From a virus: a stretch of 49,560 nucleotides of DNA. The stretch is from positions 1 through 49,560 of IMG/VR virus record IMGVR_UViG_3300005613_003244. One strand, written 5' to 3'. The number at the start of each line of letters is the position of its first letter. The first letter of the stretch is position 1. The translations under genes were made by a program, and so were the position numbers. Under the pieces are notes generated by a model that was not told the origin of the DNA, did not search any database, and was given only the letters and a program-made list of their open reading frames with translations. Below are positions 3,605 through 20,992 of this stretch, piece by piece.

Positions 3605-4549
3605 ATGATTAAGCCGGGGTTGTGTTGCATTTCTCTTGAACTTAAAGAGCAGGGCTATAGTTTTCAAACCATGACCTATAAGCGTTTCTCCTGTTTGCCA
3701 AGAGATGAAGCCTTAGATATTTTAGGTTGTCGTATACTCAACAATATGCAGGTCACAGATGCTACAATACAACACTGTGCGAATAACGATTATTGTTATC
3801 GCATTAGCAGTGATCTATTTCCTCTCATTACTTATACTGACGCCAATATTGCTTTGGATCAACTGCCGAATTATGAAGCAATAGAGCAATCGTTTGATGC
3901 TATAGCCAAAACAATTAGAGAAACAAATGTTCGCATATCAGTTCATCCAAGTGAATATGTTGTATTAGCATCTACGAACCAAGATGCTGTAGAGCGTTCA
4001 ATTACAGAACTAAATTTTTACAGTAATTTTCTTGACAGGATTGGTTGTCCTTCCGATTATAATTCTCCTATGAATTTACATATCAATAATAGACAAGGAA
4101 GCAACGATGAGGTTGTAAATAGGTTTATTAAAAATTACAATAGACTTGACGATAATTGTCGCAATCGTCTAGTGATAGAAAATGACGATAAACTTAATTG
4201 TTGGTCTGTAAAGCAACTAGTAGAGGATTTCCACCCCAAGACTAATATCCCAATCACCTTCGACTATCTTCACCACGCTTGTCATCCAGAAGGTTGGACT
4301 GAACAACAAGCACTAGAAGAATGTTATATGACATGGGGTTATTATAGACCATTATTTCACTACAGTGAAAATATTCCAGACCATCCAAATCCTCGTAAAC
4401 ACGCAGACTATGCTACTAAAGAAATTAATACATATGGACTAGATTTCGACTTAGATTTTGAGGTTAAGGCAAAATGTCGTGCTATCTCTCACTATCTGGA
4501 ACTTTATCCGACTTTCGCAGGTTATCCTTCTCAAATGGTTGCACTTTAG
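3605..4549 (+). CDS. uvsE: UV damage endonuclease UvsE/UvdE
   Basis: 314 residues, the normal length of the UvdE family, a TIM-barrel metalloenzyme that nicks DNA 5' of UV photoproducts and some other lesions. Recognisable blocks are YRISSDLFPL (65-74), ISVHPSEYVVLAS (111-123), MNLHINNRQG, RLVIENDDK and FDYLHHACHP, which supply His, Glu and Asp metal ligands. A good AAGGAG site precedes the ATG and a strong promoter sits just upstream. The gene probably protects the phage genome from light damage, which suits an aquatic or surface-exposed host. Confidence 0.92.
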   Translation: MIKPGLCCISLELKEQGYSFQTMTYKRFSCLPRDEALDILGCRILNNMQVTDATIQHCANNDYCYRISSDLFPLITYTDANIALDQLPNYEAIEQSFDAIAKTIRETNVRISVHPSEYVVLASTNQDAVERSITELNFYSNFLDRIGCPSDYNSPMNLHINNRQGSNDEVVNRFIKNYNRLDDNCRNRLVIENDDKLNCWSVKQLVEDFHPKTNIPITFDYLHHACHPEGWTEQQALEECYMTWGYYRPLFHYSENIPDHPNPRKHADYATKEINTYGLDFDLDFEVKAKCRAISHYLELYPTFAGYPSQMVAL

Positions 4550-4696
4550 ATGAGTGGATGGCTCATATTATTCACTGGGTGTATATATCTATGGGTGTCT
4601 ATAGAGCAGGCACATAAAGGTAATTGGGGTATGTGTATAGCTTATTGTGGTTATGCTTTCGCAAATATTGGACTTTATATGTTAGCATCTAAATAG
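4550..4696 (+). CDS. Small two-pass membrane protein, 48 aa
   Basis: It starts directly after the uvsE stop. Two hydrophobic segments (about residues 3-18, GWLILFTGCIYLWVSI, and 28-46) are separated by a short polar loop (EQAHKGNWG). This resembles the very small inner-membrane proteins common in T4-like phages. Function unknown. Confidence 0.6.
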   Translation: MSGWLILFTGCIYLWVSIEQAHKGNWGMCIAYCGYAFANIGLYMLASK

Positions 4697-4707
4697 GAGT
4701 AAGTACC

Positions 4708-4863
4708 ATGCAAGAACCAGTAAGATTATCTCTGACAACTGGAGAACCACATAAGGATAACATAAAACATTATCCTCTTCCAAGCATTGAACAAGAACTT
4801 TGGGACACAATTCAAGAACAAAAAAATGAGAGAGAAGATAATAAGGAAAGCAATAAAGATTAG
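4708..4863 (+). CDS. Hypothetical acidic protein, 51 aa
   Basis: The sequence TAGGAGTAAGTACCATG gives a well spaced ribosome site. The protein (MQEPVRLSLTTGEPHKDN...) is short, hydrophilic and ends in a charged helix. It overlaps the deaminase start by 38 bases. No function could be inferred. Confidence 0.5.
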   Translation: MQEPVRLSLTTGEPHKDNIKHYPLPSIEQELWDTIQEQKNEREDNKESNKD

Positions 4864-5266
4864 CTACGACAAATTCAAGCCCAACCCTTATCAAAGAAGA
4901 TATCATTATGCCTTTGCTTTTGACGGTAAGAAAATAATTGGGTTTGCTAAAAACAACCCTATTAAAGTTAATGCAAAGGCTTATAGGATGGGCCAAAAAT
5001 TTAATATCCAAACCTACTTAGATTTTCCTTTTTCACATGCTGAATCTCATCTTATTTCTCAACTACTTGATACATATAACTCCATTCGTTCTGATTGGTC
5101 ATTGGTTGTATTACGAATTAATAGACAGGGGAAAATACTACTAAGTAAACCGTGCCAAAATTGTCAAAAAATTCTTGATGCTGTAGGCTTTAAAAAAGTA
5201 TATTGGAGTATTGATAAGAATAATTTTGCTACTAATAATAGGATAATAGAGTTATGTCAACGTTAA
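4826..5266 (+). CDS. Zinc-dependent nucleoside/nucleotide deaminase-like protein
   Basis: The frame is open from 4787, but the ATG at 4826 (MREKIIRKAIKISYDKF) gives a natural protein of 146 residues. It carries the cytidine-deaminase superfamily zinc motifs HAE at 71-73 and PCQNC at 109-113, with the Glu as proton shuttle. The closest roles would be dCMP, cytidine or base deamination, or RNA/DNA editing; the substrate cannot be told. It sits among ThyX, UvsE and nucleotide enzymes, so a part in pyrimidine supply is plausible. Its end overlaps the next gene by 13 bases. Confidence 0.72.
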   Translation: MREKIIRKAIKISYDKFKPNPYQRRYHYAFAFDGKKIIGFAKNNPIKVNAKAYRMGQKFNIQTYLDFPFSHAESHLISQLLDTYNSIRSDWSLVVLRINRQGKILLSKPCQNCQKILDAVGFKKVYWSIDKNNFATNNRIIELCQR

Positions 5267-6171
5267 TAACAGGAAGTACAGGACTACTGGGTTCTGCATT
5301 AAAAGGCTTCTTTCCTAATGCAATATATGTATCGTCTAAAAACGCTAATCTAGTTGATGTAGATAATACATTTCGACTAATACAAACATATAAACCAGAC
5401 TGCGTTATTCATTTAGCAGCAAATGTTGGTGGTCTTTTTAAGAATATGAGAGACAATGCTGGCATGTTTTCTAGTAATTTGAGAATGAATACCAATATAG
5501 TCGATGCTTGTGTAGAAAATAAAGTTACAAAATTTATAGGGTGTTTATCTACTTGCGTATTTCCAGCAAAGGTGGAGTATCCTATATATGAAAATATGCT
5601 ACATGATGGTGAGCCTCATGATTCTAATTTTGGATATGCTTATGCAAAAAGGATGATGGAAGTTCACTGTAGGGCGGTTTCGGAACAGTATGGATATAAA
5701 TACAAGTGTGTAATTCCTACAAATATTTATGGGCCACACGATAACTTTAGTTTAACGGATGGTCACGTTATTCCTGCTCTAATTCATAAGGCATATATTG
5801 CACAGAGGAATGGAACTAATTTCTCTGTTGCTGGTAGTGGATTACCAGAGAGACAGTTTATTTATTCGGCAGATTTAGCACATTTGATCTATAAACTAAA
5901 CCATCATATGTACGATTGGGTTTCTCCCATGACTATTGCAGAAGAAAAAGAATATAGCATATATTATGTAGCAAAAATTATTGGTGAATATTTTGGAGTG
6001 TGGGAAAGAACTGGATTTGATAACAGTCTACCAGATGGTCAACATAAAAAGTATGCTGATAATGAAAGACTCAAGAGATATATTGATGATTTTAAATTTA
6101 CTCCATTAGAAATTGGACTGAGAAATACTATGGATTGGTTCGTTAAAAATTACGACAAAGCAAGAAAATAA
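5254..6171 (+). CDS. fcl: GDP-L-fucose synthase-like NAD(P)-dependent epimerase/reductase
   Basis: 305 residues of the extended short-chain dehydrogenase family. The nucleotide-binding TGSTGLLGSAL is at 6-16, and HLAANVGGLFKNM, the Ser/Thr pair in CLSTCVFP (about 99-100) and Tyr128-x3-Lys132 (GYAYAKR) form the active-site set. TNIYGPHDNF and SGLPERQFIYSADLA match GDP-fucose synthase (3,5-epimerase/4-reductase of GDP-4-keto-6-deoxymannose). The role would be to make GDP-fucose or a relative for glycan modification. A related phage gene could act on another NDP-4-keto sugar. No GDP-mannose dehydratase was seen in the window. Confidence 0.85.
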   Translation: MSTLITGSTGLLGSALKGFFPNAIYVSSKNANLVDVDNTFRLIQTYKPDCVIHLAANVGGLFKNMRDNAGMFSSNLRMNTNIVDACVENKVTKFIGCLSTCVFPAKVEYPIYENMLHDGEPHDSNFGYAYAKRMMEVHCRAVSEQYGYKYKCVIPTNIYGPHDNFSLTDGHVIPALIHKAYIAQRNGTNFSVAGSGLPERQFIYSADLAHLIYKLNHHMYDWVSPMTIAEEKEYSIYYVAKIIGEYFGVWERTGFDNSLPDGQHKKYADNERLKRYIDDFKFTPLEIGLRNTMDWFVKNYDKARK

Positions 6172-6183
6172 TTCAAGCGAGGC

Positions 6184-6212
6184 TTGACAAACACCGATAC
6201 TAGTGATATACT
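6184..6212 (+). promoter_or_regulatory. Sigma-70 type promoter with CCGATACTAG spacer
   Basis: TTGACA (6184-6189), a 17-base spacer containing ACCGATACTAGTGA, and TATACT (6207-6212). The same CCGATACTAGT string occurs in the promoter at 15935. The leader then carries TTTCACAGGAGACTAAGG before the ATG at 6245. Confidence 0.85.
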
Positions 6213-6244
6213 AGAGGAAATCAATCTTTCACAGGAGACTAAGG

Positions 6245-6649
6245 ATGCCAAAGGGTAAGAAAACTTGCGACAATTGCGGAACTATGACAGGCCCAAGGGC
6301 ATATATGTGTTCTAATTGCAATACCCCATTTACTTTCGCTGTTCAAAGCAGAGAAAAGAAAAACACTAGGATTATTCGTGAATTTAACTGGAGAGAACTT
6401 GAAGCGGGAGAAAAAATCAAGGCTACTGGTGGCCCTTATTATGTGAGAGGTGCTGATTTTATTCCAATGGGATATCGTGGAAAGTTTACGGTTATGAGTC
6501 TTGATGACGAAGGAATTCTGGCTTATTCTGATAAGGGTGGGTATTGCCATATTTATATGGGCAAGGATAAACAGTGTCCAGAAACTAAAATGTGGAAAAC
6601 CAAACACAAACTTATTAAACTAAAAATCAAGAACCCACAATTGGTGTAG
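6245..6649 (+). CDS. Zinc-ribbon protein, 134 aa
   Basis: The N-terminus carries two CxxC knuckles (CDNC at about 8-11 and CSNC at about 22-25), a typical zinc ribbon. The rest is beta-rich (GPYYVRGADFIPMGYRGKFTVMSLDDEGILAYS), suggesting an SH3-like or KOW-like barrel that could bind nucleic acid. It is the first gene after a strong CGAT-type promoter, so probably expressed early. The exact role is unknown. Confidence 0.65.
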   Translation: MPKGKKTCDNCGTMTGPRAYMCSNCNTPFTFAVQSREKKNTRIIREFNWRELEAGEKIKATGGPYYVRGADFIPMGYRGKFTVMSLDDEGILAYSDKGGYCHIYMGKDKQCPETKMWKTKHKLIKLKIKNPQLV

Positions 6650-6668
6650 TCTTCTCTAGGAGAAAATT

Positions 6669-6947
6669 ATGCCACCAAACAAAAAACACAAAGATAAAGA
6701 TAGTGTTAGAACTATTGAAACGCCAAGTGCGTTTGGTTCTCACTCAAACATGGTTGTAGACATTAGTGAATACAACCACAATATACCAAAAGATAAGATT
6801 ATTTGTCAGGATGAAAGGGGATACTATGTCACCTATAAGAATAGGATTGACAATGGATTATCCGATCCTTGCAGGTATGCTTGTCCACTGTGCAGATTTA
6901 ACAACCTAAATATTATTTTCTCCAGTTGGGACATTTTAAGAAAATAA
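6669..6947 (+). CDS. Hypothetical protein with Cys pairs, 92 aa
   Basis: A GGAG site precedes the ATG. The N-terminus is basic and disordered (MPPNKKHKDKDSVRTIE), the middle has DERGYYVTYKNRID, and the C-terminal half holds CRYACPLC, which could bind zinc with another Cys. The neighbouring genes also encode a zinc ribbon and an HTH protein, so a regulatory role is possible but unproven. Confidence 0.55.
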   Translation: MPPNKKHKDKDSVRTIETPSAFGSHSNMVVDISEYNHNIPKDKIICQDERGYYVTYKNRIDNGLSDPCRYACPLCRFNNLNIIFSSWDILRK

Positions 6948-6956
6948 CTCAAGGAC

Positions 6957-6985
6957 TTGACAACCAACGGTCGATAATATATATT
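6957..6985 (+). promoter_or_regulatory. Sigma-70 type promoter with CGAT spacer core
   Basis: TTGACA (6957-6962), a 17-base spacer with GGTCGATAATA, and TATATT (6980-6985). It lies directly after the stop of the preceding gene and drives the HTH gene at 7057 and perhaps the first tRNAs. Confidence 0.8.
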
Positions 6986-7056
6986 AGAACAAGTAGGGGT
7001 TGATTGGTGGCGATTCAAGCCCTTTGGTAACTAAGCCACAACTAGAGGATTTAATT

Positions 7057-7707: not shown

Positions 7708-7781
7708 GGGGGTGTAGCCAAGCGGTCTAAGGCATTCGACTTTTAATCGAAGGATTCGTGAGTTCGAATCTCACCGCCCCT
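7708..7781 (+). tRNA. tRNA-Lys (UUU)
   Basis: Acceptor GGGGGTG/CGCCCCT with wobble ends, D stem GCC/GGC, anticodon arm TTCGA-CTTTTAA-TCGAA with anticodon TTT, T arm GTGAG-TTCGAAT-CTCAC. The 3' half is overlapped on the other strand by the C-terminal codons of an endonuclease gene. Confidence 0.92.
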
Positions 7782-8360
7782 ACTTTCTATAACTTTTTTT
7801 AGTTCATTAATACAACCTATTACGTTTTCTTTAACTTGTTTTGCTGTAAATCTTTTTACTATCCAACCGTTAGATTTACTAAAATTATCACGACGAGCAT
7901 CTATATTTTTTACTTTATTAGTATTATGTGTAGCCCCATCAATTTCAACGTCGATCTTTAAATCAAGAAAAGCAAAATCGTATTGATATAAACCAACCCT
8001 GTAATTATATTCCCAACCAGTAATATTACTCGATATTAATGCGTTTTGAAAAATTTTTTCCGGATAACTTTGCTTAGAACTGTGATTAACTAAATAAGGA
8101 ACCTTATCAGGATTTTCTTCTAAGTATTTTATTCTTGCTTTAGAAATTTTTTGTTTTGTTGCTTCTGAATGAGTTCTTTTGTGTTTTTTATTATATAGAA
8201 TTTGTGCATCTGACATATTACGAGATTTAAATCTTCCATTCTTTACGGCTGATAAAATTGTGGCTTGGCATACTCCAAAGTGATTAGTAATATCTCTCCA
8301 AGTATGTCCTTGATCATAAAATTTTTGTATTTCTACCCAGTTATATTTTGTTTTATTCAT
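7743..8360 (-). CDS. Homing endonuclease, Vsr/EDxHD-like
   Basis: The frame is open further upstream, but the ATG at 8360 (MNKTKYNWVEIQKFYDQG) starts a domain-like protein of 205 residues. The N-terminus has an HTH for site recognition (WRDITNHFGVCQATILSAVKNG). A NUMOD3-like helix follows (HKRTHSEATKQKISKAR), then a Vsr/DUF559-type nuclease core: QYDFAFLDLKIDVEIDGATH with RRDNFSKSNGWIVKRFTA. This fold is the one linked to I-Bth0305I and to environmental split-intein loci. It is free-standing, opposite to all neighbours, and its last 13 or so codons are the antisense of tRNA-Lys. Confidence 0.8.
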   Translation of the reverse strand: MNKTKYNWVEIQKFYDQGHTWRDITNHFGVCQATILSAVKNGRFKSRNMSDAQILYNKKHKRTHSEATKQKISKARIKYLEENPDKVPYLVNHSSKQSYPEKIFQNALISSNITGWEYNYRVGLYQYDFAFLDLKIDVEIDGATHNTNKVKNIDARRDNFSKSNGWIVKRFTAKQVKENVIGCINELKKVIESRGGEIRTHESFD

Positions 8361-8440
8361 AGCAATGATCTCATAAAATAAAATTAAACATAAGACTATT
8401 ACTTTATACACCATACTCGCCAAAAGGAGGAAATTATGAG

Positions 8441-8509: not shown

Positions 8510-8650
8510 ATGGAAGATTACAACTGGGAATATGTAGATGATAATTCTGTTGATTATCTTGACTCCATGACAGAAAGCGCATACTATGCAGATGAAAAGA
8601 ACGAGTGGGAAAAATACTATTACGAAATTCATGAAGAAATCGAATATTAA
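8510..8650 (+). CDS. Small very acidic protein, 46 aa
   Basis: An AGGAGA site precedes the ATG. The protein (MEDYNWEYVDDNSVDYLDS...) is dominated by Asp, Glu and Tyr, with almost no positive charge, as in some DNA-mimic or inhibitor proteins, though nothing else supports that role. Its TAA overlaps the next ATG (TTAATG), so it is coupled to the phosphoribosyltransferase gene. Confidence 0.65.
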   Translation: MEDYNWEYVDDNSVDYLDSMTESAYYADEKNEWEKYYYEIHEEIEY

Positions 8651-9132
8651 TGCAAACCCCTGTTTCTGAACAACTCATAAATAGAAGAACAGAAGATGGT
8701 AGTTGGTTACAGGGATGTGATCATACTACGATTCTTCTTAATCCTAAGATCAGAAATAAAATTATACTACAGTGCGTTGATGTTCTCAGATCATATTCAG
8801 ACAATTTTGATTCTATTGCTTGCTGTGGAATTAGTGGATTGTTGGTAGTTCCGCAAATTTCTGAACTACTTAAAAAAAATATTATTGTTGTTCGTAAAAA
8901 AAACGACAAAAGATATTCGCCTTTTCAGTATGAAGGAGTAGTTCCTAAAAAATATGTGATTATTGACGATCTTATTTGTAGTGGTAAAACAGTTAAACAT
9001 ATTATTAAAACCATTAGTGATGATTGTGTAAGAGCAGAATGTATCGGAATTTATTGCTTTCTAAAAGATAAGTGTGCATATAAATCAGATCACCCCTTGT
9101 GCAAAAGAGACTTAGGAATAGAATATTTATGA
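8650..9132 (+). CDS. Phosphoribosyltransferase
   Basis: 160 residues with a PRTase type I fold. The PRPP-binding loop KYVIIDDLICSGKT lies at about 101-114, with two acidic residues then SGKT, and CCGISGLLVVPQI (58-70) fits the preceding strand-loop. Members salvage purine or orotate bases by joining them to PRPP to give the nucleotide. It overlaps guaC by four bases, so a purine substrate (hypoxanthine, guanine or similar) is likely but inferred only from context. It is shorter than most bacterial Hpt/Gpt proteins. Confidence 0.8.
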   Translation: MQTPVSEQLINRRTEDGSWLQGCDHTTILLNPKIRNKIILQCVDVLRSYSDNFDSIACCGISGLLVVPQISELLKKNIIVVRKKNDKRYSPFQYEGVVPKKYVIIDDLICSGKTVKHIIKTISDDCVRAECIGIYCFLKDKCAYKSDHPLCKRDLGIEYL

Positions 9133-10019
9133 AAATTAATAATGATCCAAAACTAGATTTTGATGATGTTTTGCTTGTGCCACAAAGATCAAAAACAGCA
9201 TCAAGAAAAGAAGTAGAATTAAATAGAAATTTTTCTTTCTATCATTCAACTAGAACTTGGTCTGGTATTCCTATTTTTGCAGCGAATATGGATACCACCG
9301 GAACTTTTGCTATGTCTAATAAGCTAAGAGAATATAATCTGCCAACGTGTATTCACAAACATTACGAAATAGACACATTAAAAAATGAACTACTCTATCC
9401 AGACCATCAATGGTGGAGTATGGGAATTAAGGATAGCGACGTAACAAAGCTAGTAAGGTTTGTAGAACACACTGGTTATGTTCCAAATCTATGTATTGAT
9501 GTAGCAAATGGTTATACTGATGATTTTGTAAACTTTTGCAATATGATTAGAGAAAGATGTTTAACACAATGGAGCTTCAATTCTCCCATCATTATGGCTG
9601 GTAACGTATGCACTCCAGAAATGGTTCAAGAAATTATTCTGCATGGTGGAGTAGATATTGTTAAGATTGGTATTGGCCCCGGCAGTGCTTGCACTACGAG
9701 GCTTAAAACTGGATGTTTTACGGCAGATTCAAAAGTCAACACATCATCTGGCCCGAAGAACATAAAGGATGTTAGCGTTGGAGAATTGGTATTGACACAC
9801 GATGGCACATATCAGCCCGTAACAAATATTCATAATAATGGGTTCAAGGATAATCTTGTTGAAATAAATGGAATAACTTGTACAGACGATCATGAATTCT
9901 ATGTTGTCAACAAGTCTGATCAAGACAAGATTACTGAGTATAATATTCACGACTTTGCATATTGGCTAGAAGCAAAAAATATTTCCGAAGAAAATCATTT
10001 TATCATAGAAATTCTTTGA
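9129..10019 (+). CDS. guaC: GMP reductase N-terminal half fused to N-terminal split intein
   Basis: The start is the ATG at 9129 (MKINNDPKLDFDDVLLVPQR), matching the start of bacterial GuaC; the longer frame would begin inside the upstream gene. Residues 1-195 are the GuaC barrel: AANMDTTGTF, CIDVANGYTD, and catalytic Cys188 in GIGPGSACTTRLKTG. At residue 196 the sequence switches to an intein: CFTADSKVNTSSGPKNI (block A), VGELVLTHDG, and block B CTDDHEFYVV. It stops at 10017-10019 after 101 intein residues. The homologous enzyme would continue from TRLKTG straight into GYPQ. The remainder of the enzyme is encoded from 10887. Confidence 0.93.
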   Translation: MKINNDPKLDFDDVLLVPQRSKTASRKEVELNRNFSFYHSTRTWSGIPIFAANMDTTGTFAMSNKLREYNLPTCIHKHYEIDTLKNELLYPDHQWWSMGIKDSDVTKLVRFVEHTGYVPNLCIDVANGYTDDFVNFCNMIRERCLTQWSFNSPIIMAGNVCTPEMVQEIILHGGVDIVKIGIGPGSACTTRLKTGCFTADSKVNTSSGPKNIKDVSVGELVLTHDGTYQPVTNIHNNGFKDNLVEINGITCTDDHEFYVVNKSDQDKITEYNIHDFAYWLEAKNISEENHFIIEIL

Positions 10020-10084
10020 TGAACATATTGTAAAATTGTGTATAAATTGGTGATAAGAAACCTTATTTATATACGGAGATACAA

Positions 10085-10804
10085 ATGTCAAAATCAAATT
10101 ATAATCTATGTGAACAAGAAGTGAGAGATTTACTTAAAAAAGAAAAAAATGCTGACTATATTGCTGAATTCTATGGGTGTAGCAAGAGTTTAGTATACTC
10201 TTTTTGCAAGCAAAATAATATTGACTGGCCTAAGCTGAATTTAGTAGGTTATAAATACCATTGGTTGGAAGTAGTTAAAAAAAGTGGATCTAAAAATGGA
10301 CAAGTTTATTGGATATGCAAATGTAAATGCGACAAGGAAATAGAACTACCCACAAAAACCATAACAAGAAACGAAAGAAAATCCTGTGGTTGCTGGATGA
10401 AAAGTAAGCAATACAGCAGAAGTCATTATTTATGGAGTGGCTATGGAGACATACATGGAAAATGGTGGGGTAATATTAAGAGGGGTGCTGCAAAACGTTT
10501 TCACAAGTTTGAATTAGATATAGAAGATGCTTGGAATTTATTTTTACAACAGGATCGTAAGTGCGCATATAGTGGCGTTGTTTTAAAATTTGCCTTAACA
10601 ATGAAAGGATCTTCGGATACTACAGCATCTTTAGATAGGATAGATTCAAGCAAAGGTTATACACTTGATAATGTTCAATGGGTTCATAAAACTGTTAATA
10701 TAATGAAACAGGGACTGTCTGATAAAGATTTTAAATACTGGATTAAAACAATAGGAGATAATCTTGAAATTCAAACTAACGGAAGTCACAAAAAAAGAAG
10801 TTAA
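10085..10804 (+). CDS. HNH-type homing endonuclease lodged between split-intein halves
   Basis: 239 residues. N-terminal HTH (ADYIAEFYGCSKSLVYSFCKQ), then a zinc/DNA-binding segment (VYWICKCKCDKEIELP...SCGCW), then an HNH-like core DRKCAYSGVVLKF...ASLDRIDSSKGYTLDNVQWVHKTVN, a pattern found in many phage HNH homing enzymes. An ACGGAG site precedes the ATG. The last 13 codons overlap the start of the C-terminal intein gene in another frame. Its site between the two halves suggests it spreads the whole fractured locus by cutting intein-free guaC alleles. Confidence 0.85.
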   Translation: MSKSNYNLCEQEVRDLLKKEKNADYIAEFYGCSKSLVYSFCKQNNIDWPKLNLVGYKYHWLEVVKKSGSKNGQVYWICKCKCDKEIELPTKTITRNERKSCGCWMKSKQYSRSHYLWSGYGDIHGKWWGNIKRGAAKRFHKFELDIEDAWNLFLQQDRKCAYSGVVLKFALTMKGSSDTTASLDRIDSSKGYTLDNVQWVHKTVNIMKQGLSDKDFKYWIKTIGDNLEIQTNGSHKKRS

Positions 10805-11444
10805 TATTTCTCAGGAAATGTTTGACCTTACTGTAGAAAACAATCATTCATACTGTGTAGGCTTAGAAAAAATAATTGTACACAATTGTGGATATCCTCA
10901 ACTATCTGCTATAATGGAGTGTTCACATGCTGCTCATGGTTTAAGGGCTGGTAAAAGTAGACTTGGATTAATTTGTGCTGACGGGGGTTGCAGAAACCCA
11001 TCGGATGTATCAAAAGCATTTGCTGCCGGTGCAGATTTTTTGATGTTGGGTGGTATGCTGGCGGGAGCAGATGAGTGTGAAGGAGACTGGGAATATGAGT
11101 ATAAATGCGAAAGTAAGCCAGACAATATTGTGAATAAAACCTTAACTTGGTGGCAACCTATTGATCCTGGCAATAATGCAGAAAAAAGAAAGAAAACCTT
11201 AAAGTTTTATGGTATGTCATCACATAATGCTCAACAAAAATATGGAGGTATACAAAATTATAGAACAAGTGAAGGAAGAACTAAAACCATACCATATAAA
11301 GGATCTGCTTCTATTGTAGTAGAAGATATTCTTGGGGGATTAAGAAGTTCTTGTGCTTATATCGGAGCAACCTGCCTAAAAGACATGAATAAATGTGCAG
11401 AGTTTAATATTGTAAACAGAACTCATTTTGATCAAAGTTTGTAA
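10764..11444 (+). CDS. guaC: C-terminal split intein fused to GMP reductase C-terminal half
   Basis: It starts at a TTG (10764), set by AGGAG at 10753-10757 seven bases upstream. Residues 1-41 are the C-intein: MKFKLTEVTKKEVNISQEMF, then DLTVENNHSYCVG (block F), then a terminal VHN at 39-41. Splicing would leave Cys+1 (10887) followed by GYPQLSAIMECSHAAHG, the exact continuation of GuaC. Later blocks are LICADGGCRNPSDVSKAF, FLMLGGMLAG, FYGMSS and DILGGLRSSCAYIGA. The spliced enzyme would have about 380 residues; bacterial GuaC has about 347, and the extra length lies in an inserted loop after LAGADE. Confidence 0.93.
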   Translation: MKFKLTEVTKKEVNISQEMFDLTVENNHSYCVGLEKIIVHNCGYPQLSAIMECSHAAHGLRAGKSRLGLICADGGCRNPSDVSKAFAAGADFLMLGGMLAGADECEGDWEYEYKCESKPDNIVNKTLTWWQPIDPGNNAEKRKKTLKFYGMSSHNAQQKYGGIQNYRTSEGRTKTIPYKGSASIVVEDILGGLRSSCAYIGATCLKDMNKCAEFNIVNRTHFDQSL

Positions 11445-11787: not shown

Positions 11788-12141
11788 GGGCTGGTAATGG
11801 TGTCGATTGGATAATTATTTTTATGATTAGCAAGTAGTGGTTGATCGACAGGCCACTTTAAAAGTCGATTAAAAACGCTTTAACTGGCGAAACTCAGTTA
11901 GCACTCGCCGCTTAATTATAGCGGTGACGATCTTCGGAAGCGATGAAGGTAGCGTCCAAAAGATCGTTGTAAAATCCTTTCGCTCCTATCATAATCGACG
12001 GGTGGTAGGCTAAGATTTGTCGATAGGATTGGTGAATGTTGTTCATTCTTTAGCCAATTCCAAAATTTTATGAATGAAATAAACTTGTAGAAGTTATAAA
12101 AAGATTATTACAACACGCAAGTTCGACTCTTGCCCAGTCCA
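11788..12141 (+). ncRNA. ssrA: tmRNA (transfer-messenger RNA)
   Basis: About 354 bases. The 5' GGGCTGG pairs with 3' CCAGTCC, and the 3' end has a full T arm GCAAG-TTCGACT-CTTGC with discriminator A; the next bases are CTT rather than CCA. The 5' segment TGGTGTCGATTGG matches the conserved tmRNA start. An internal frame ...GETQLALAA then TAA (stop at about 11912-11914) is a typical tag ending in LAA, the ClpXP-type degron. The resume codon is uncertain: the frame is open back through TGG-less codons encoding KNALT. A pseudoknot-rich segment follows. tmRNA frees stalled ribosomes and tags the unfinished protein. No smpB was seen in the window. Confidence 0.88.
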
Positions 12142-12144
12142 CTT

Positions 12145-20417: not shown

Positions 20418-20846
20418 TTATTTGATAATTCCAGCATGAAGTTTCCTATGGCAGTTAGAGCAAACAACAGTACATTTAGAAATTTCTTTTAAAATAGTTT
20501 TTTTTGAATGTGAACTGTTCTTCATTCTGGAAATATTTGCTTCTTTTACCTTTGGGTCTTTATGATGAAAATCTAAACAAACAGGAGTTTTTTCTTTACA
20601 GTATTTGCAGCCTTTACTACTTTTGTACTTATTGATAAAGTCTTTATTCTCCTTTTTGTATTTTTTGTTTCTAATTTTTGTTTTATATAGATATCTTTGT
20701 TTATTTAATTCATAGTGTTGTTTATGATATTTAGCCTGACATTCTTTACATCTACTTTGTAATTTACCTAGTTTTTTATTTTTGAAACCAAAGCATGATT
20801 CAGTTTTTTCTTCTTGACAGACGGAACATTTTTTGGTATCATTCAT
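20418..20846 (-). CDS. HNH endonuclease, free-standing, antisense
   Basis: The ATG at 20846 (MNDTKKCSVCQEEKTESCFG) gives 142 residues; a longer frame would run into the antisense of tRNA-Leu. N-terminal CSVC...CKEC zinc ribbon, basic linker (YHKQHYELNKQRYLYKTK), then HNH core CKYCKEKTPVCLDFHHKDPK with CTVVCSNCHRKLHAG. It is a typical phage homing HNH. It lies seven bases from tRNA-Leu and opposite to all neighbouring genes, splitting the tRNA from its apparent promoter. Confidence 0.85.
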   Translation of the reverse strand: MNDTKKCSVCQEEKTESCFGFKNKKLGKLQSRCKECQAKYHKQHYELNKQRYLYKTKIRNKKYKKENKDFINKYKSSKGCKYCKEKTPVCLDFHHKDPKVKEANISRMKNSSHSKKTILKEISKCTVVCSNCHRKLHAGIIK

Positions 20847-20853
20847 TGTATCC

Positions 20854-20935
20854 CTCACGGTGGTGGAATTGGTATACACAAGACACTTAAAATGTCTCGG
20901 CATCTTGCCTTGCGAGTTCGACTCTCGCCCGTGAG
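20854..20935 (+). tRNA. tRNA-Leu (UAA)
   Basis: Acceptor CTCACGG/CCGTGAG pairs perfectly. D arm with GGAATTGGTA, anticodon arm AGACA-CTTAAAA-TGTCT with anticodon TAA, long variable arm (CGGCATCTTGCCTTG region) as expected for Leu, and T arm GCGAG-TTCGACT-CTCGC. The discriminator is A. CCA is not encoded. Confidence 0.95.
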
Positions 20936-20992
20936 ATTATACACCGTTTTACGATGTATTTGATTTTTAACTTTAACCAGAAAGATTTTGAT

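Follow-up and report, generated by a model that had tools for sequence, protein, structure and literature searches.

How did a phage gene for GMP reductase come to be broken in two by a split intein, and does the insert that broke it still move? The question is raised by positions 9129-11444 of one IMG/VR virus record, a metagenomic virus contig of 49,560 bases whose whole length was analysed and is called the window here. Fractured genes with split inteins form a known class, credited to Dassa et al. 2009 in the citing passages of PMC7090010 and PMC7891396. The first of these attributes to the same study the IMPDH-1 split intein in a fractured IMP dehydrogenase gene, and the biochemistry of that intein is summarised in PMC11766414. 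The evidence discussed below points very strongly to a mobile split-intein cassette in a tailed-phage GMP reductase gene.

A first-pass annotation, made from the letters of the window, had proposed a GMP reductase gene (guaC) fractured by a split intein, with an endonuclease gene in the break. Profile matches of the exteins, the intein and the endonuclease agree with this proposal (Table 1). The first-half open reading frame (9129-10016) starts with ATG at 9129 and encodes 296 aa, that is 195 aa of GuaC followed by a 101-aa N-intein (CFTADSK...CTDDHEFYVV...). The second (10764-11444) starts with TTG at 10764, preceded by AGGAG and overlapping the 3' end of the endonuclease gene by 41 bases, and encodes a C-intein (...DLTVENNHSYCVGLEKIIVHN) after which GuaC resumes with Cys-Gly-Tyr-Pro, from 10887 to 11441.

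Table 1. Features of the fractured guaC locus in window coordinates.
Feature	Position	Strand	Evidence or remark
Phosphoribosyltransferase gene	8650..9132	+	overlaps guaC start; directly 5' of intein-free guaC in related viruses too
N-extein, GMP reductase (GuaC) residues 1-195, active-site loop GIGPGSACTTRLKTG	9129..9713	+	GMP reductase profile matches
N-intein, 101 aa: Cys1, block B T57-x-x-H60	9714..10016	+	Pfam Hint_2, IMPDH intein profile; stop codon 10017-10019
RNA hairpin just 5' of endonuclease gene	10036..10076	+	z-score -4.2; base includes part of Shine-Dalgarno GGAG (10075-10078)
Free-standing HNH endonuclease gene, 239 aa	10085..10804	+	PHROG matches, phage HNH relatives
C-intein, 41 aa, TTG start: block F DLTVENNHSY, block G VHN	10764..10886	+	NCBIfam intein_Cterm
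C-extein, GuaC residues 196-380, first residue +1 Cys (CGYPQLSAIM)	10887..11444, stop included	+	GMP reductase profile matches

The two halves rejoin exactly, as the annotation had claimed: the joined exteins give 380 aa with no missing or repeated residue and match the GMP reductase profile NF003470 over positions 1-338 in a single stretch of 402 bits, above the cut-off of 397, whereas the separate halves score 209.5 and 171.7 bits and both stay below it. The matches of the halves abut, running from 1 to 194 in the first (with the intein Cys1) and from 193 in the second (with the intein Asn). Intact viral GuaC proteins (L002 and L007) reach 419 bits against NF003470; the stricter cut-off of TIGR01305 (492) is attained neither by the joined GuaC nor by these two intact ones. 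The insertion, placed by the annotation a few residues after the active-site Cys, lies 7 residues past it (GSACTTRLKTG↓C, with the arrow marking the site). An enzyme gene in two parts whose exteins rejoin without loss, with a free-standing endonuclease reading frame between them, is the layout of fractured genes with split inteins, which the annotation had recognised. The nearest solved structures to the spliced GuaC are the human GMP reductases; between the GGMLAG and FYGMSS motifs, these viral GuaC proteins are longer than the human enzyme by a segment of about 30 residues (spliced residues ~258-297).

Intein blocks were recovered by profile search in both halves, as the annotation had led us to expect. 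The N-intein matches Pfam Hint_2 (8e-7), the C-intein matches NCBIfam intein_Cterm (22.4 bits, cut-off 15.6), and both are matched by profiles of viral IMPDH inteins. The residues of a class 1 intein are in place, namely Cys1, the block B TxxH (T57, H60), H40-N41 in the C-part and Cys at +1, and with the exception of the +1 residue the class 1 splicing residues are invariant throughout the IMPDH/GuaC intein family. AF2 models the N-intein as an intein-like N-lobe (pLDDT 87); compared with PDB structures, this model comes closest to gp41-1 and other inteins, though at weak E-values (0.02 and above). Searching the PDB by sequence returned gp41-1 at E 0.013; Ika8/Ika4, ranked above it, were discarded as composition matches. 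The intein profile found no match in 84,980 bacterial/archaeal genomes.

The gene in the break encodes predicted N-terminal DNA-binding helices, a zinc-ribbon-like motif (CKCKC..CGCW) and a C-terminal HNH-type region. Its product has no Pfam match and is assigned to the HNH family by its matches to PHROG 3322 (2.4e-21) and PHROG 374 (2.8e-18), both HNH/endonuclease families, and by phage HNH endonucleases found with tblastn at up to 46% identity. The only close relative in viral contigs is that of L022, the second carrier discussed below, and the differences between the two show a codon-position bias (p=1.4e-4). An AF2 model made without an alignment gave no usable fold (pLDDT 36). The HNH endonuclease in the guaC break is predicted to be a homing endonuclease.

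Despite 3 substitutions between the window and L022, no pair is broken in the inner stem of the hairpin just 5' of this gene; in the IMPDH-1 loci L036 and L037 a different hairpin sequesters AGGAGG. By covering the ribosome-binding site, the guaC hairpin would probably limit endonuclease synthesis on read-through mRNA and keep its output low. Between 8600 and 11900 no sigma-70 promoter or terminator rises above chance. Matches to the T4-late-like TATAAATA number 20 against 12 expected, none convincingly placed on the + strand 5' of the endonuclease gene.

Comparison with L022, an independent virus contig with an unrelated neighbourhood, informs us on the history of the insert. L022 has the cassette at the same codon, with identical order, spacing and junctions, and these two are the only carriers found. 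Like any virus contig from a metagenome, the window might have been joined from unrelated pieces, an artefact that the annotation had warned of. Both halves, however, belong to one orthologous guaC within a syntenic neighbourhood, and because another virus with other flanks has the same structure, misassembly is very unlikely, indeed close to negligible.

Within guaC, the two carriers share 70.9% of nucleotides in the N-extein and 71.7% in the C-extein, as against 93.5% in the N-intein, 87.7% in the leader, 93.8% in the endonuclease and 95.9% in the C-intein, so that the 1.17-kb insert is overall ~94% identical; the flanks of guaC do not align. Synonymous divergence (dS) is 0.19-0.26 in the insert and 1.9 or saturated in the exteins, where the estimates are at or beyond saturation. 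The fitted change points of identity, 9705 and 10891, differ from the splice borders (9714 and 10886) by 9 and 5 bases (Fisher p 9e-48). The surroundings of guaC differ in their kinship too. The window is syntenic with four intein-free contigs (L002, L003, L007 and L010) in the order phosphoribosyltransferase-guaC-(two small genes)-DNA ligase, and L022 has the order rIIA-rIIB-guaC in common with the intein-free L014.

Both viruses might have inherited an insert that simply evolves slowly from a common ancestor, and the extein tree does not reject the carriers as sisters (AU p=0.245), so the argument for transfer rests on the identity step and synteny. Vertical descent at equal mutation rates would not produce an insert with about one tenth of the synonymous divergence of the exteins, a step aligned with the splice borders and unrelated neighbourhoods around the carriers, and we therefore judge it very improbable. 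Recent horizontal transfer of the complete split cassette between viruses is the simplest reading. The comparison is strong evidence for such transfer; it indicates that the whole package moved lately between viruses as a selfish unit, and shows a split-intein locus moving as one, with sharp borders, presumably through cutting by the endonuclease.

Does the intein still splice? Of the 65 differences in the insert, 43 lie at third codon positions (p=7e-8), and because of this concentration the N-intein, the endonuclease and the C-intein are, as judged from their substitutions, all under selection to work. Trans-splicing of the GuaC halves is a prediction from sequence, and working split enzymes without splicing exist, such as a phage ribonucleotide reductase whose gene a homing endonuclease has split, an example that PMC10448857 mentions by citation. 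Splicing could thus have been lost and guaC be merely split, its fragments forming a non-covalent enzyme or being dead remnants. We regard this as very unlikely: neither virus has lost any of the splicing residues, the inteins have dN/dS of ~0.05-0.12 in addition to the third-position bias, and an intein that no longer worked would burden the active-site loop with a tail of 101 aa and a head of 41 aa.

The origin of the cassette can be approached through its relatives. Using an IMPDH-1 N-intein sequence as query, real IMPDH-1 loci (86-95% identical) were recovered in viral contigs, and the set was enlarged by profile search and cleared of near-copies to leave 20 viral IMPDH loci. In all 20 the insertion is at (G/A/T)G(G/P)G↓S-x-C or the equivalent loop position, with Ser at +1. 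Twelve are split with an endonuclease reading frame in the break, 6 are split with 87-151 bases between the halves and 2 are contiguous. The endonuclease has been lost from the split inteins of L035, L056, L062, L066, L069 and L076, with a remnant reading frame left in L056, and the inteins of L054 and L080 are the contiguous ones; together the IMPDH loci show the complete range of states at a single site. Downstream (3') of the IMPDH C-half, the IMPDH-1 phages L035-L038 have a gene for a protein resembling adenylosuccinate synthetase (PurA/PurZ type by eye), a hint of 2-aminoadenine DNA.

Profiles built from the viral IMPDH inteins only, with the GuaC rows excluded, match the two GuaC intein halves at E 9.5e-34 and 1.2e-10, and in six frames of the window these two reading frames are their sole matches. 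The N part is 30-49% identical to the 20 loci and the C part 34-51%, and every splicing residue is retained. Because IMPDH-only profiles match both halves and the splicing residues are conserved, the GuaC intein is, on sequence grounds, homologous to the IMPDH-1 inteins, its nearest kin, which bears out the relationship suggested by the annotation; yet it is no IMPDH-1 allele. The annotation had also taken the two sites to differ, and the fetched IMPDH-1 loci show this directly: their junction GIGGG↓S-x-C corresponds to NF003470 positions 183/184 and has Ser at +1, while the GuaC junction TRLKTG↓CGYPQ corresponds to 193/194, exactly 10 residues downstream, and has Cys. The endonucleases in the IMPDH breaks are also of another type, with NUMOD3 repeats and mostly DUF559/Vsr-like nuclease domains, in place of the HNH type of the GuaC break.

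Set against L035-L038, the GuaC intein has 40-44% (N) and 49-51% (C) identity and is broken at the same position (101 + about 40 aa). Both systems sit in a phage purine-nucleotide enzyme of the same fold and have an endonuclease gene in the break with a Shine-Dalgarno hairpin 5' of it; they differ in host enzyme, site, +1 residue and endonuclease. Other systems resemble it in part. The AceL NrdHF split intein, in a phage-like contig, has the fractured-gene layout with a 98-aa IntN, a 48-aa IntC and a free endonuclease between them, but its host is NrdHF, its intein is class 3 and its endonuclease is of the GIY-YIG type (PMC7891396). The split intein of phage MIJ3 also has an HNH endonuclease gene in the break and is alike in layout, but its host is DNA polymerase B (PMC6892783). 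Finally, gp41-1 (PDB 6QAZ) is likewise class 1 and the closest solved intein to the GuaC N-intein by sequence and fold, but it is distant in sequence and has a gp41 helicase host and Ser at +1 (PMC11766414).

A tree of the inteins places the GuaC pair among those of IMPDH, beside L055 and L068 (support 90/86), but a tree constrained to group all IMPDH inteins is worse by only 6.6 log units (AU p 0.09). Such nesting would imply that the intein jumped ectopically and that its endonuclease was exchanged, and the tree suggests that the GuaC intein may have arisen in this way, by passing from IMPDH to the paralogous GuaC.

From these pieces a mechanism can be proposed. The tandem gene set would yield two precursors, GuaC(1-195)-IntN and IntC-GuaC(196-380), whose intein halves would come together and, acting as a class 1 intein, cut themselves out and ligate the exteins to give a GMP reductase of 380 residues. 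The predicted target of the HNH endonuclease is the conserved stretch of intein-free guaC that codes for GSxCTTRxKTG/CGYPQLSA, and recombination repair of the cut would copy all three parts of the insert (N-intein, endonuclease and C-intein) into the recipient allele at once, a complete-cassette transfer that the sequence comparison supports.

Class 1 splicing requires Cys, Ser or Thr at +1. Both carriers have Cys there, whereas full-length intein-free viral guaC alleles have either Cys (9/16) or Val (7/16), and therefore only some of them could tolerate the cassette. In Haloferax, an unsuitable +1 residue stops splicing and not endonuclease recognition (PMC10643990). We propose that Val alleles may be protected or would lose GuaC function if invaded. 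The full scenario, in which an IMPDH-1-type split intein passed from IMP dehydrogenase to a new site in the paralogous GuaC, 10 residues off, swapped its endonuclease for an unrelated HNH enzyme and now spreads in phages as an indivisible three-gene cassette, with the +1 Cys/Val polymorphism deciding which alleles can be invaded, is put forward tentatively, as possible rather than probable.

Further elements were noticed in these contigs. Just 3' of the fractured guaC the window encodes a tmRNA (11788-12144, +) with the ARAGORN tag GETQLALAA and 92 bits to Rfam tmRNA (gathering score 47), which default Rfam filters miss; phage tmRNAs are already known (e.g. PMC8928761). A DUF559-type endonuclease reading frame (7746-8372, -) overlaps a tRNA-Lys gene on the opposite strand (7708-7783), and a CxxC-rich, endonuclease-like one (20421-20903, -) overlaps a tRNA-Leu gene (20854-20936); both are putative mobile genes at tRNA genes. 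Another intein in L022, with an endonuclease-like insert, lies in thyX (3-1235). A UvsW-like helicase gene (VMVDE↓CHMAKAD) is fractured in L023-L026 (about 4245-7051) by a split intein with an endonuclease reading frame and has a contiguous intein at the same site in L027-L031, giving close before/after pairs of gene fracturing. DNA-polymerase-like genes are fractured by split inteins in L041 (4356-7275, DnaE-like, beside thyX), L079 and L085 (polymerase-like exteins).

In the literature searched, which covered the Dassa et al. 2009 survey (reportedly 26 loci) through its citing papers, no paper describes a GMP reductase with an intein. The layout itself is known from fractured genes, including the HNH case of phage MIJ3, and the GuaC host locus is real, its mobility being documented with unusual clarity. 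Both its host enzyme and its insertion site are new among the natural split inteins. The IMPDH-1 relatives are among the fastest known split inteins and are widely used protein-ligation tools, and the GuaC intein, with Cys at +1 and a different, HNH endonuclease, suggests itself as a candidate orthogonal pair. More broadly, the locus is a clean example from nature of a gene that a split intein has divided into separate genes and that nonetheless travels as one unit, and the natural +1 Cys/Val polymorphism makes the limits of intein invasion testable.
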